The position numbers were made by a program, and so were the translations under genes. The notes beneath the pieces were generated by a model. It had not been told where the DNA came from, did no database searches, and saw only the letters and a program-made list of their open reading frames with translations. From positions 1-48,003 of the forward strand of contig PHET01000016.1 in assembly GCA_002841275.1 (NCBI GenBank): a stretch of DNA of 48,003 nucleotides, in the 5' to 3' direction. Below, piece by piece: positions 28,627 to 34,844 of the stretch. Position 1 is the first letter of the stretch; the number at the start of each line of letters is the position of its first letter. This DNA is from Actinobacteria bacterium HGW-Actinobacteria-7. Lineage in GTDB: Bacteria > Actinomycetota > Coriobacteriia > Anaerosomatales > PHET01.

Positions 28627-29700
28627 CTACTTCGCGGCAGCAGGCTCGTTGGGGTCCATCAGCCGCACCACTTGTATCCTCGCGTTCTCCTTGTCGGCCA
28701 CCAATGCGAGGTCTCTGATCACATCCACATCGTTGGGGAACTCGAAGGCCGCCGGCATGGTACCGCGACTGCCATACGAGCGAATCAGCTCTCCGTCGGC
28801 CGAGATTCTCACCAGCGAGAACCTGAACGCATCGGCGACCATAGCCGAACCGTCCGACATGATACAGATGCCACGAGGCAACCCCAGCACAGCAGAGCCC
28901 GCCTTGGCAGCATCGAAGACCCAAAGCACAGTGCCGTCAGGGTCAAGCGCGACGACCCTCGCATTGTTGGTGTCGGATACGACCAGAGTTCCGTCGGCGG
29001 CAAAGACCACCCCGTTGGGGCGCATGAAGTCCGATCCCGGCTTCACCTTGGTGATGCTCGCCTTGAGCTGACCGTCTACCGAGAAGAGCTTGACCCCCGC
29101 AGCGTCAGTGACGGCCACCGTGTCCCCGGATACCGCGACGTCGGTAGGACTCCACGCCGAAGCGCGCTTCTTGTTCGTGGGAGGGTGAAACGACCTGATG
29201 AGCCGCCCGCGTGGGCTGTAGACCATGATGGCTCCACGTCGAAGGTCGGCCACAAACACCGTACCGTCTTTGGTCACGTCCAGCCCGGCCGGTTGGCTCA
29301 GGTTGTCTTTGCGCTGCGCGACGGGCGTGTCGGTAACAGTACGACCGAACTCTCTCCTGAAGCGACCCTTTTCGCTGAACACGCAGATCCGACCGTGACC
29401 GGTATCCGAGACGTAGATGTCGTTTGCCGGACCGTACGCGGCGGCCAACGGTCGGTCGAACCCGGGAAGGTCCCCTTCCCCCGGGCCCTTGACGATCAGA
29501 ACCGATTCGAGCCCCGCGCCCTCAACCGCATGCGGAGCGGGTTCACGCGCCCAGCGAAGGAGAAGCCAGATGAAGACGACCAGCAGCACGGCAATGAACG
29601 CCAACAACGCGACCTGCGCCGGGCGGCTGCCCAATCGAGAATCCTCGCGGCGGCGGCGCGGTGGCTGCGCGGAAGATACCGGCTCGACCGAGTCGGTCAT
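28627..29700 (-). CDS. Membrane-anchored NHL-repeat beta-propeller protein
   Basis: Protein of 357 residues from the ATG at 29698-29700, which overlaps the stop of the giant cytochrome gene in TGATG. A short basic N-terminus (PPRRRREDSR) precedes one membrane helix (about 30-52, VALLAFIAVLLVVFIWLLL), so the rest should lie outside the cell. It consists of about six NHL-type repeats such as YGPANDIYVSDTGHGRICVFS, QPAGLDVTKDGTVFVADL and RPNGVVFAADGTLVVSDTNN, forming one propeller. NHL proteins often accompany multiheme cytochromes, as here. It has no haem motifs and no evident active site. A binding or scaffold role for the neighbouring protein is likely (inference). Confidence 0.88.
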   Translation of the reverse strand: MTDSVEPVSSAQPPRRRREDSRLGSRPAQVALLAFIAVLLVVFIWLLLRWAREPAPHAVEGAGLESVLIVKGPGEGDLPGFDRPLAAAYGPANDIYVSDTGHGRICVFSEKGRFRREFGRTVTDTPVAQRKDNLSQPAGLDVTKDGTVFVADLRRGAIMVYSPRGRLIRSFHPPTNKKRASAWSPTDVAVSGDTVAVTDAAGVKLFSVDGQLKASITKVKPGSDFMRPNGVVFAADGTLVVSDTNNARVVALDPDGTVLWVFDAAKAGSAVLGLPRGICIMSDGSAMVADAFRFSLVRISADGELIRSYGSRGTMPAAFEFPNDVDVIRDLALVADKENARIQVVRLMDPNEPAAAK

Positions 29701-32700
29701 CACAGTCCGTTGCCGGCATGGGTGTGACAACCCGAAGCCGTGCAGTCCAAGGGCCAGACCGACAGGTCGGCCTCGGTATGATTGGCCACCGTGAGATCGT
29801 GACAGGAATCGCAGAAGAACCGCAGGTCCCAGCCGCCGCCGGGTACCGGCGCGACAACCAGGTTCTCGGCGGTATTGGCCGTGTTCGTACCCACAACCGT
29901 CTCGAGCAGCGCGAATTCGTTGATTGAGCCGTGTGCGTCATGACAGTTCGCGCAGGTAAGCCCGTCGCCCTTCGCGAATCCGAGACTACTCCTCAGCTCA
30001 GGCGAGACCGACGAACCGCCTCCGTGAACGTTGGTGCCCCACACCGCGGAGATGTTGGCAGTAGTGGTTGCTCCCCCGGCCGCAAGCGGTGCCTCGGCCC
30101 AACTGCCCGTCTGGGCAGCAGTTGGCAGCGCTGCATCGTGACAGCGGAAACAAAGCATCTCACCGGTAGCAGAGATCGTGTGGGTCGTAGTGGGGCTCTC
30201 CGGATCGACGCACGGGGTGGTTACCGAAGCGGTGTGCGGCTCGTGGCAGTTCGCGCAACCCAATCGCGAACCAGTCGCAATCGAGTCTTTCGACAACAAG
30301 TCATGCCGAGTGCCCGGGCCTGCTCCAACGAGCCTGGTCGCGATATCAGACGCTCCGCCCTCAACGCCGCCGGAGGTATGACAGCGCAGACAACGATCGT
30401 CGGCCGAGTACGGATACAATCCCGCTTCCCGTGACGTGTGGGCGATGTGGCAGCTCAGACAGACCACTTTGGTTCCGGTGGTCGGCTCGACCACACCGGT
30501 GCTATGCGCAGAAGCCTCAAAGCCGCGCAGGTCCCCGTTGGGTGAGTCTCCGGAAGTTCCGTGGCACTCGTAGCAAAACGCGTTGCCCGACGTCTCGGGA
30601 CCCGCCCGAAGCAACCCTTTGACGGTAGCCGTCTGATCGGCCGAGTGAACTCCGTGACACGATGAACACTGAAGAATGCCGGTGCCGCTTCCCATGGGAA
30701 CGGGATGACGCGAGGTGCGGCTCTCATCCAGGAAATCGCTCAGGACGTCTGAAGCCGACGTACCGTCATGACAACTGAGGCAGAGCGGCGCATCGATGGT
30801 CGTCGTGCCCACGAGCAAGTTCAGCCCCGTCGAAGCGTGGGTACTGTGACAGACCGCGCACATCGCAGTGTCGCTGCTGTACCCGCCATGCGGGGAGTCC
30901 GTCGTGGTCGTCGAAGACTCCGCGACCGTACGGATATACGACCGGGCACTTGGTGGACCGACATTATCCGACGCATCGACCGTAGCGACGCTGTACCAGT
31001 ACTCGGTATAGGAGGCCGTCGTTACATCGTGGTAGGTAGGTTCGGACACTGGTCCAGACGCCGTCATGGTCGTCGCGGTCGCGGTGCTGGAGGTTGACCG
31101 GTAGACGTGATAGCCGGCCGCGAGCGGAACCGGCGCCCAGGTAAGAGTGACCGACGCGGTATTCCTGGGACTGATGGCCGCTGGCGGCTGGATGTACTCG
31201 GGCGTTGTTGCGGTGAAAGTCGTGGGAGAACTCAGTGGGCCCTCGCCGCGCCCGTCCGACACGGAGACCCCGTATCGCAGCTCAACGAAGCGAGGCACCA
31301 TTGTGTCCTCGTACGACCGATCCATACCAGGGGTGATGGTGGCGATCGCCGAGAACGGCGCGCCTGCAATCGAACGCCATACTCGATAACTGACCGGTGG
31401 AACCGTCCCGGTGCTTTCGCCCCAGTTAAGCAGAACGCCCCGAGCCCCAGCATCTGTCGACAGTACGGCGATCGGAGAGCGAGGCACGTCCGCAAGAGTC
31501 GTGACCCATGCGCCACCCGAGGAATCAGAGACGTTTCCTGCGACATCGACCGCAGCGACGGTGTAGGAGTAAGCAGTCTCAGTCGTCAACGAACTCAACG
31601 TCATGCTGTTGACGGGCGAGGTCCCGACCAGCGACCCGAAGTTGCGGACCTCGTAGTAGCCCATCCCCGACGCCGTGTCGACGCTCGGATCCCACGTAAG
31701 GAGGACGCTCGAGGCCGATTGCGCCACAGCTGAAGGTGTCGACGGAGTGGACGGCGGGGTGGCATCGACCTTGCCGGACATGCTCTTGACGCTCTCCTTG
31801 TTGCCGCCCGGATCGATTGAGTACCAGTAGATGGTCTGCTCACCATCAACGGGAGGACTGATGGGGACCGAATAGGATTTCCAAGGACCTGCCGCCGACG
31901 TCCAGCTGTAGTACGTCAGTCCCGGCTCGTTCGAAACAAAGGAGATCTGGGGCTTGCCCAAGAACCAACCGTCGTTGCCGTTCGGCGCAGGCGGATCCAC
32001 CACGATTGACGTCACCGGCGGTGATAGGTCGGTTGTTCGCAAGATGGTTCCCGTTGCGCCCACGATCCAGCCATGATCAGCGTCCGTGAATCCGACTGCG
32101 TTGAGCTGATTGAGCGTGCCCGGAAGCTGTGAGGACCATGCAGAACCACCGTTGGCCGTCAGCCTGACCACGCCGCTGTCGCCGACCAGGTACCCACGCA
32201 TGGAGTCCAGGAACGTCATGCCTCGGAGAATCGTGGTGACCCCGGATGTCTGCGCGGTCCACGTGGTGCCGCCACTCGCCGCCGTCCTGAACAGAACGCC
32301 GCCACCACCCGCAACCCACCCTGTCTGTGTATCGACGAATGAACCTGCGTACAGGACCTGCGCGGTGATGGTCTGGGTGGTCCATGAGGAACCACCGTTC
32401 GTGGTCTTAGCTACTATTCCGCCGCTGCCCCAGGCATACGCCGTCTGGGTGCTGACCGCAGAAACACCCCACAGTGTCGTGGAGGTGGGGATGACGCCAG
32501 TCCCCTGAGGCGTCCAAGTGGTGCCGCCGTTCTGCGTCCCCAGAATCACACCTGACGCTCCGACTGCCCAGCCTGAGTTCACATCACGGAAGTCGACACC
32601 GTAGAGGGCCGTCGTGATACCGGAAGTCTGGGCCGCCCATGTCGTGTGGCTTGTTGTGGTTCTTATCTGACCCGCAGTGCCGACGGCCCACCCCTTGTCT

Positions 32701-34844
32701 TGTGTCACGAAGTCGACGCCGTAGTAGTTGCTACTCGTCCCAGTGGGCTGCTGAGCTCCCCACGTGCGCCCGCCGTCATGCGTATGGACGATTGAGCTGT
32801 CTCCCACCGCCCATCCCTCATCGCTTGACGCGAAGGAAAGGTTCCGGAAGTTGGCAATCGACCAGAATCCGGTGCTCTCCCACGTGGCTCCCGCATCGAA
32901 CGTGCGGCGCATTGCTCCCGCATCACCAACGATGCCCGCGACCGTCGCGTTCGCAACCGTGACCTGACGCAGAATACCCGTGAACCCTGAGTTCTGAGCG
33001 GTCCAGGTCGTTCCGCCGTTGGTGGTGTGCAGCACGACGGATCCGGTTGCGGCTCCCCCGACTGCCCATCCGTTGTTCACATCGGCCATCTCGATGGAGT
33101 AGAGCGCCAGCGTGGTGGGCACCGTCTGTGCGACCCAGGTGGTGCCCCCGTTGGTCGTCCTGCGAAGGCGACCCGTTGTGCTGGTAAACCATCCGTTGGT
33201 CACATCCGTGAATTGAACCGAGTAGATTGCCGAAGTCACGCCAGAGGTCCGAGCTGACCATGTCTCGCCGCCGTCGACCGTCGCCCTGATCGTCCCAGCC
33301 CCGCCGACCGCCCAACCGCGATCAGAATCGAGGAAGAACACATCGTAGAGCGGCTGGGTCGTGCCGGAGGGCTTGGCCATCCAAGTGGCTCCGCCATCGA
33401 CCGTCTTGAGTATCGTGCCGCCCGCTCCGACCGCCCAAGCGGTCTGCGCGTTCACGCCAGTGACCGAATACAGTATCTGCGAGGTGCCTGATGCCTGCGG
33501 TGACCAACTCGCACCTGCGTCGGTCGTCTTGCGAAGGAATCCACCAGAACCGACTATCCACCCGTTCACGTTGTCGACGAACTTCACTGCATACAGGTCG
33601 CTGGCACCGAGGGTGCGGGTGGCCCATGAGTCGCCGGCGTCCTCGGTAGTCATCACCAGGCCCGCCGCACCGACCACTATTCCTGAGCTGGGTCCCGTCC
33701 AAGACGCCCCATTGAGGCGCGAAGTCGTGCCCTGTTGCTGGCCCTGCCAGACAGCGCCGTCATCGACCGTGCGAAGCATCACACCGTTCGCCCCGACCAG
33801 CTGGGCCTTGGAACCCTCGGCGGCGACCACTCCATACATCGTCTGGGCGCCAGACTTCTGAGACTCCCAAGTCACTCCGCCGTCGCGGGTGAACAACACA
33901 AGACCTGTGGCCCCCGCTATCCACCCGGTGGACGAGTCTCGGAACGAGACCGACTGCATAGTGCTGGTGAGCGTGGTGGGCACACTTAGGTTGTTCATGT
34001 ACTTCACCGTCAGCGAGTTCCACGTCGACCCGCCGTCTGTGGTCTTCAAGAATGTCCCCGACGCACCCACCGCGTAGCCGATTTGTCTGTCGACAAAATC
34101 GACACCGTTGAGGACCGCCGTTACACCGCTCGTTTGCGTCGTCCACGTGGACCCATTGGCTGTTCCGACGATGGTTCCCGCCGCGCCGACCGCCCATGCG
34201 TGGGTCGTGTCGACAGAGCTGACTCCGTAGAGAATCTGCGATGTGGGCGACGGCGTTGCTGCAGACCATCCCGTGCCGCCGTTCGTGGTCTGACGAAGCG
34301 CCCCGCCAGCACCGACCGCCCAACCCGTTTGAGTTGTGGCCATGGAGATTCCGTAAAGGTTCTGGTTGATGCCCGACGTCTGCGTCGTCCAGGTGGATCC
34401 ACCGTCAGTCGTGTTCTTGATGACTCCGTTGCCGGTACCGCCGAGTCTGTTTCCGACGACCCAACCAATCCGAGAGTCAACGAAATCAACGGCCCGAAGC
34501 GTGTCGGTCGAGCCCGGATCAAGCGAGTTCCACTGCGCGCCGTCATCGTCGGAGTGGAGCAAGATTCCCGGTCCACCCACGGCCCACGCTTCCGAGCCGA
34601 CAACGTCGACGCCGTAGAGCAGGTTGCCTTGCGGGAGCGGATTCTGCCAGTACCAGGACTTCTGGCCGGTCGGAGCGGTCGAGAGGGCACCATACGCAAG
34701 AGAGATCGCACCGATCACGAGCCCGACTGTCGTGAACACGATCAGGGTCCGGAAACTCCGGGCCGAGACACGCCGAACAGGCCTTCGGGACATCCTCCCT
34801 CGGCCTGTGGACCTTCGTGGGGTGCGCTCAGTCAGAAATCCCAC
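29700..34844 (-). CDS. Giant exported fusion: 21 Ycf48/BNR-like repeats, Ig-like and FN3 modules, undecaheme cytochrome c domain
   Basis: Protein of 1714 residues starting at a GTG with GGAG upstream. A basic, R-rich start and one hydrophobic segment (about 32-56) serve as signal peptide or anchor. Residues about 60-940 hold 21 repeats of about 42 residues with the pattern GWAVG..G.I..T.DGG.TW..Q.SG, as in Ycf48/BNR propellers; 21 is three seven-bladed propellers. An Ig-like module (about 940-1022) and three FN3 modules (about 1025-1310) follow. From C1329 to about 1707 there are ten CxxCH motifs (CAVCH, CLSCH, CSSCH, CYECH, CLSCH, CLRCH, CANCH, CFRCH, CANCH, CDSCH) and a final CTASGCH: eleven predicted haems. 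I infer a surface electron-transfer or adhesion role. No cytochrome-maturation genes are in the window. Confidence 0.93.
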   Translation of the reverse strand: MGFLTERTPRRSTGRGRMSRRPVRRVSARSFRTLIVFTTVGLVIGAISLAYGALSTAPTGQKSWYWQNPLPQGNLLYGVDVVGSEAWAVGGPGILLHSDDDGAQWNSLDPGSTDTLRAVDFVDSRIGWVVGNRLGGTGNGVIKNTTDGGSTWTTQTSGINQNLYGISMATTQTGWAVGAGGALRQTTNGGTGWSAATPSPTSQILYGVSSVDTTHAWAVGAAGTIVGTANGSTWTTQTSGVTAVLNGVDFVDRQIGYAVGASGTFLKTTDGGSTWNSLTVKYMNNLSVPTTLTSTMQSVSFRDSSTGWIAGATGLVLFTRDGGVTWESQKSGAQTMYGVVAAEGSKAQLVGANGVMLRTVDDGAVWQGQQQGTTSRLNGASWTGPSSGIVVGAAGLVMTTEDAGDSWATRTLGASDLYAVKFVDNVNGWIVGSGGFLRKTTDAGASWSPQASGTSQILYSVTGVNAQTAWAVGAGGTILKTVDGGATWMAKPSGTTQPLYDVFFLDSDRGWAVGGAGTIRATVDGGETWSARTSGVTSAIYSVQFTDVTNGWFTSTTGRLRRTTNGGTTWVAQTVPTTLALYSIEMADVNNGWAVGGAATGSVVLHTTNGGTTWTAQNSGFTGILRQVTVANATVAGIVGDAGAMRRTFDAGATWESTGFWSIANFRNLSFASSDEGWAVGDSSIVHTHDGGRTWGAQQPTGTSSNYYGVDFVTQDKGWAVGTAGQIRTTTSHTTWAAQTSGITTALYGVDFRDVNSGWAVGASGVILGTQNGGTTWTPQGTGVIPTSTTLWGVSAVSTQTAYAWGSGGIVAKTTNGGSSWTTQTITAQVLYAGSFVDTQTGWVAGGGGVLFRTAASGGTTWTAQTSGVTTILRGMTFLDSMRGYLVGDSGVVRLTANGGSAWSSQLPGTLNQLNAVGFTDADHGWIVGATGTILRTTDLSPPVTSIVVDPPAPNGNDGWFLGKPQISFVSNEPGLTYYSWTSAAGPWKSYSVPISPPVDGEQTIYWYSIDPGGNKESVKSMSGKVDATPPSTPSTPSAVAQSASSVLLTWDPSVDTASGMGYYEVRNFGSLVGTSPVNSMTLSSLTTETAYSYTVAAVDVAGNVSDSSGGAWVTTLADVPRSPIAVLSTDAGARGVLLNWGESTGTVPPVSYRVWRSIAGAPFSAIATITPGMDRSYEDTMVPRFVELRYGVSVSDGRGEGPLSSPTTFTATTPEYIQPPAAISPRNTASVTLTWAPVPLAAGYHVYRSTSSTATATTMTASGPVSEPTYHDVTTASYTEYWYSVATVDASDNVGPPSARSYIRTVAESSTTTTDSPHGGYSSDTAMCAVCHSTHASTGLNLLVGTTTIDAPLCLSCHDGTSASDVLSDFLDESRTSRHPVPMGSGTGILQCSSCHGVHSADQTATVKGLLRAGPETSGNAFCYECHGTSGDSPNGDLRGFEASAHSTGVVEPTTGTKVVCLSCHIAHTSREAGLYPYSADDRCLRCHTSGGVEGGASDIATRLVGAGPGTRHDLLSKDSIATGSRLGCANCHEPHTASVTTPCVDPESPTTTHTISATGEMLCFRCHDAALPTAAQTGSWAEAPLAAGGATTTANISAVWGTNVHGGGSSVSPELRSSLGFAKGDGLTCANCHDAHGSINEFALLETVVGTNTANTAENLVVAPVPGGGWDLRFFCDSCHDLTVANHTEADLSVWPLDCTASGCHTHAGNGL

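Follow-up and report, generated by a model that had tools for sequence, protein, structure and literature searches.

A 21-blade propeller head joined to an eleven-haem cytochrome core in one gene of a Gram-positive actinobacterium

Introduction

How Gram-positive bacteria pass electrons across their thick wall, and how the last carrier is attached to its acceptor, is poorly known. The question is raised by a gene of Actinobacteria bacterium HGW-Actinobacteria-7 (Actinomycetota; Coriobacteriia; Anaerosomatales), which lies in the 48,003-nucleotide stretch of DNA analyzed here (contig PHET01000016.1 of assembly GCA_002841275.1, positions 1 to 48,003; hereafter, the window). An initial annotation, made from the sequence alone, read this gene as a fusion of propeller repeats, Ig/FN3 modules and a chain of haem motifs, which could place an electron conduit at a chosen surface or mineral. 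Is the fusion real, where does its head come from, and what would such a head do for a cytochrome? The host lineage consists of subsurface Gram-positives known for iron reduction. Both cultured members of the order are Gram-positive and have 17-18 multihaem genes, and a cultured Anaerosomatales member reduces ferrihydrite obligately (PMC9686372).

Results

Encoded on the minus strand, the gene extends from a GTG at 34844 to a stop at 29700 as one open frame of 1714 amino acids (Table 1); a likely alternative start codon is the ATG at 34793. A Pfam search of the protein matched PSII_BNR/Ycf48 in the head (E 3e-83), one fn3 module and, in the haem region, Paired_CXXCH_1 (E 2e-23). It should be noted that a fusion of two genes could be an artefact of assembly or of a frameshift. 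However, the same order of parts was found in eight genes of seven genomes: G001 and G002 (both of the window's family), G037, G032, G026, G038 and the present genome, which carries a second fusion gene on contig C4 (L036:7035-12869). A contig end truncates the gene of G038; the seven others are complete, and the homologues match the window protein in length as well. Since the fusion recurs in homologues and in a paralogue on another contig of the same genome, and the open frame is intact, a join or frameshift is ruled out, leaving the artefact with next to no probability; the fusion, domain order and haem count of the initial annotation were correct. The predicted export signal is composed of an arginine-rich n-region, a hydrophobic core and an AxA-like end, and the hydropathy scan revealed no other membrane segment in the protein. 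No wall-anchoring signal was seen in it, so the protein may simply be released from the cell.

Table 1. Features of the fusion gene and its downstream neighbour (positions are those of the window)
Feature	Residues	Position	Strand	Basis or remark
Whole gene		29700..34844	-	Open frame; homologues of the same length and order
Predicted export signal	18-53	34686..34793	-	Hydropathy scan; homologues with clear AxA ends
WYWQNPLPQGN strand before blade 1	64-74	34623..34655	-	Homologue alignment; blade alignment
Head, 21 Ycf48/BNR-type blades	76-940	32025..34619	-	Pfam; blade HMM; Ycf48 structure matches
Ig-like module	943-1028	31761..32018	-	OmpL47-like, under that model's cut-off; AlphaFold/Foldseek
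FN3 module 1	1029-1117	31494..31760	-	Pfam; confident AlphaFold model
FN3-like module 2	1120-1212	31209..31487	-	AlphaFold/Foldseek, moderate confidence
FN3-like module 3	1213-1305	30930..31208	-	AlphaFold/Foldseek, moderate confidence
Eleven-haem core	1306-1714	29703..30929	-	Ten CxxCH, one CX4CH and eleven invariant distal His
Haem motif 11, CTASGCH	1701-1707	29724..29744	-	In five homologues this site reads CxxCH
Next gene downstream, 357-aa NHL-repeat propeller, one N-terminal transmembrane helix		28627..29700	-	ATG overlaps the cytochrome TGA (TGATG)

Blades were counted with an HMM built from the window protein itself and then run on the homologues and on relatives that lack the head. 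The 21 repeats of the initial annotation were recovered, and each of the six other complete homologues also has 21; one additional 0.5-bit match outside the head in G001 was put down to chance. This count is fixed across the seven complete fusions despite about 36-48% identity, which points to a fixed architecture. Conservation between homologues is 0.39-0.57 per blade, with no blade much above the others. The "three propellers" of the initial annotation are the natural reading, because 21 is 3 x 7 and the solved, seven-bladed Ycf48 aligns over seven repeats (residues 528-812, E about 1e-22); with a pLDDT of 50 (3 sequences), the AlphaFold model obtained for the head is too poor to show rings, and the Foldseek matches to it were discarded for this low pLDDT. 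The conserved WYWQNPLPQGN is probably the strand that closes a propeller, as blade 21 has no such strand. We also looked for internal triplication of a seven-blade unit, and there was no clear excess of similarity at blade offsets 7 or 14; thus, a recent triplication is unsupported. With 279.9 bits, the head passes the cut-off of the PSII_BNR/Ycf48-like superfamily (PF14870, 27 bits), whereas it falls short of the Ycf48 equivalog cut-off (270.9 versus 326 bits). Its blades are alike in sequence to those of the Ycf48/HCF136 photosystem II assembly factors; however, there are 21 of them instead of 7, and they are joined to a cytochrome.

Between the head and the haems, one Ig-like and three FN3 modules had been annotated. 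Pfam accounts for one fn3, which matches the FN3 structure of chitinase A1, and the other sandwich modules were recognized by AlphaFold/Foldseek, two of them at moderate confidence. The third module aligns with the FN3 module that precedes the haems in the headless relatives. In the AlphaFold model of this tail, the Ig-like and first FN3 modules are good, the next two are moderate, and the haem part, with pLDDT of about 30, yielded no haem geometry.

The ten CxxCH motifs lie at residues 1329, 1355, 1393, 1424, 1462, 1485, 1530, 1565, 1631 and 1678, and all eleven sites, including the CTASGCH reported in the initial annotation, are kept in 12 homologues. Five of the eight fusions have CxxCH at the last site, and others have CX4CH or CX5CH there; for this reason, CTASGCH is very probably a genuine haem site. 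The 12 core sequences share exactly 22 invariant histidines, 11 in the motifs and 11 distal, and we therefore predict eleven bis-His haems with every ligand within the protein. The core profile resembles MtrA, OmcE and OmcS; this similarity is detectable in the haem part and is partial, the MtrA match covering positions 59-205 of 430 in the profile (E 1.9e-14) and not the full length. OmcS and OmcE are nanowire formers of Gram-negative bacteria, and MtrA sits in an outer-membrane porin. The window cytochrome may form a polymer as well; with 11 distal histidines for 11 haems, a ligand from outside the protein would be unnecessary, unlike the shared ligand in a polymer of the OmcS/OmcE type.

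Variation in haem motifs was also observed elsewhere. In the second fusion gene of this genome and its homologues in L033, L034 and L035, C-x-C-H, as CICH or CGCH, stands in place of the first CxxCH motif, with the surrounding histidines retained; a literature search found no paper on such a haem motif. Two open frames of related Actinobacteria, L060:1508-13822 (4104 amino acids, an Anaerosomatales record) and L064:2-15082 (5026 amino acids), contain about 75 haem-type motifs each.

The NHL gene adjoins the fusion downstream in all three genomes of the window's family that carry this fusion (this genome, G001 and G002) and was not found beside the other fusions. The same NHL family is present in 61 of the 69 genomes of the order that we sampled, and several members of this membrane-anchored family share a contig with multihaem genes. 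The host genome has c-type cytochrome assembly genes and many other multihaem genes, some with an N-terminal membrane helix. The second fusion gene is followed by a gene for a 436-aa six-haem protein (L036:12880-14190), and similar-looking six-haem proteins are encoded on contig C28 near hydrogenase-like and other redox genes.

The eleven-haem core was detected in 13 of the 69 genomes sampled in Anaerosomatales/OPB41 (Coriobacteriia), and among 398 sampled genomes of the class, all core matches (E up to 1e-20) were confined to this group. With the whole protein as query, 85,000 named genomes gave no match, whereas matches were obtained when the haem alignment served as the query. Is the haem part a separate protein in relatives, a point raised in the initial annotation? 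It is headless in five genomes and has another head in one, but it is fused to propellers in seven. The headless proteins (G009, G011, G019, G033 and G138) share the FN3 module and the core with conserved haem sites; they differ from the window protein in being 712-804 amino acids long and in lacking propeller blades (zero matches to the blade HMM, except for one 1.1-bit chance match in G011). In G009, G011, G033 and G019, the headless gene follows what we take, from sequence, to be transketolase genes, and in three of these four it is seen before presumable ftsE-ftsX genes; in G032 and G026, this locus is occupied by the propeller fusion. In G126, the same core carries an Ig-rich head with zero blades. 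An Ig/FN3-rich head of this sort precedes the core at L095:6842-11275, with a weak, sub-threshold match to DUF2808 and no propellers.

In the core tree, headless and propeller genes are separated by a fully supported branch, and the G126 gene is nested among the propeller genes, as the sister of G037. Blades are also lacking in two distant eleven-haem homologues from other parts of the phylum. Haem-free propeller proteins occur commonly across the phylum (5-36 blades in the portions retrieved), so the propeller module was at hand. One of them, L229 (G706, contig C173), has at least 36 blades in an open frame of 2898 amino acids. Among 196 multihaem ORFs sampled from the fetched loci, we found no propeller-haem fusion beyond this family, and none of the 36 blade-containing ORFs at the sampled haem-free propeller loci was fused to haem motifs. 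Because relatives are headless or have another head, and the distant homologues lack propellers, a common propeller module was probably added to an older, ordinary cytochrome as an exchangeable head. The simplest account would be a gain of the head within the order, followed by its replacement in G126. A gain in the ancestor of the order with loss in the headless branch is also possible, given that the tree leaves the root within the order unsettled.

Discussion

Our preferred explanation, held with moderate confidence, is that the window protein would be an exported multihaem c-type cytochrome acting in electron transfer at the surface or outside the cell, with a 21-blade docking or scaffold head on an FN3/Ig stalk and with the NHL protein as a partner. 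The C-terminal core would carry electrons through its eleven predicted bis-His haems and hand them on at the cell surface, either to another cytochrome or to an acceptor outside the cell. Stalk and head would position the cytochrome, the head docking or scaffolding it on a partner, most likely an extracellular surface or another protein of the envelope; in the window's family, the cytochrome would work with the membrane-anchored NHL propeller encoded next to it. The electron-transfer role proposed in the initial annotation is well supported indirectly, by the eleven self-contained bis-His sites, the multihaem-rich genome and the iron-reducing cultured relative. Three observations stand against the preferred explanation. 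The protein has no recognizable wall-anchoring signal, the headless relatives retain the core, so the head would be dispensable for the core's basic job, and the window gene lies outside any cytochrome cluster, between genes that we take, from sequence, to be trp and his biosynthesis genes.

The constant blade number at this divergence, indicative of a fixed length or shape, and the even conservation of the blades are what would be expected of a mere structural spacer that carries the haem part across the thick wall or past it without specific binding. However, the much shorter headless relatives keep the same core, and propellers are unusual as spacers; we consider this role rather unlikely. 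Surface adhesins commonly contain FN3 and propeller modules, and the head could accordingly be an adhesin in direct electron exchange with another cell; yet nothing in these data links the protein to a partner organism, which makes this quite improbable. A weak profile similarity to NrfA-type nitrite reductases would suit an extracellular reductase, in which one haem is catalytic, instead of a pure conduit; conversely, eleven distal histidines for eleven haems leave no predicted open catalytic site, and we regard such a function as very improbable.

The idea of the initial annotation, a head that recognizes one particular mineral or solid and directs the haem chain to it, is compatible with an exported propeller head joined to an electron carrier, and mineral nanocrystals have been proposed as ligands of NHL propellers encoded near cytochrome genes (PMC12016550). 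However, the head has widespread haem-free relatives across the phylum, which is indicative of a general module; the idea is doubtful, since docking, spacing or the assembly of proteins would suit the data just as well, and docking or scaffolding in general is favoured over mineral choice. Tentatively, and with lower confidence than in the preferred explanation, the genes could represent a modular family of Gram-positive conduits, in which exchangeable heads (none, three propellers or Ig) direct one eleven-haem core to different targets, and the propeller version would genuinely recognize a solid or a partner. The same core with and without the head, in some cases at the same locus, is a natural set for a direct test of the head's role, and isolated modules could tether electron carriers to surfaces.

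FN3-multihaem fusions (PMC12016550) and propeller proteins encoded beside extracellular cytochromes (PMC8322314) are already known. For the covalent union of a 21-blade head with a multihaem chain, the literature searched contained no paper naming such a fusion. By description, the closest likeness in Gram-positive iron reducers is to the secreted multihaem cytochromes OcwA of Thermincola potens and OmhA of Carboxydothermus ferrireducens; the latter has 11 haems and was detected on cells and on magnetite (PMC7829351). The window protein has the predicted export signal and about 11 haem sites of this type, whereas the published account of OmhA describes neither a propeller head nor an FN3 stalk (PMC7829351). 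A large cytochrome of Geoalkalibacter ferrihydriticus, with 24 haems and two N-terminal FN3 modules, likewise combines FN3 with a multihaem chain, although no propellers are described in it (PMC12016550). The cytochrome island of Desulfovibrio ferrophilus encodes 6- and 7-bladed propeller proteins alongside extracellular cytochromes, but in genes of their own (PMC8322314), whereas in the window protein, propeller blades and haem chain are parts of one polypeptide.
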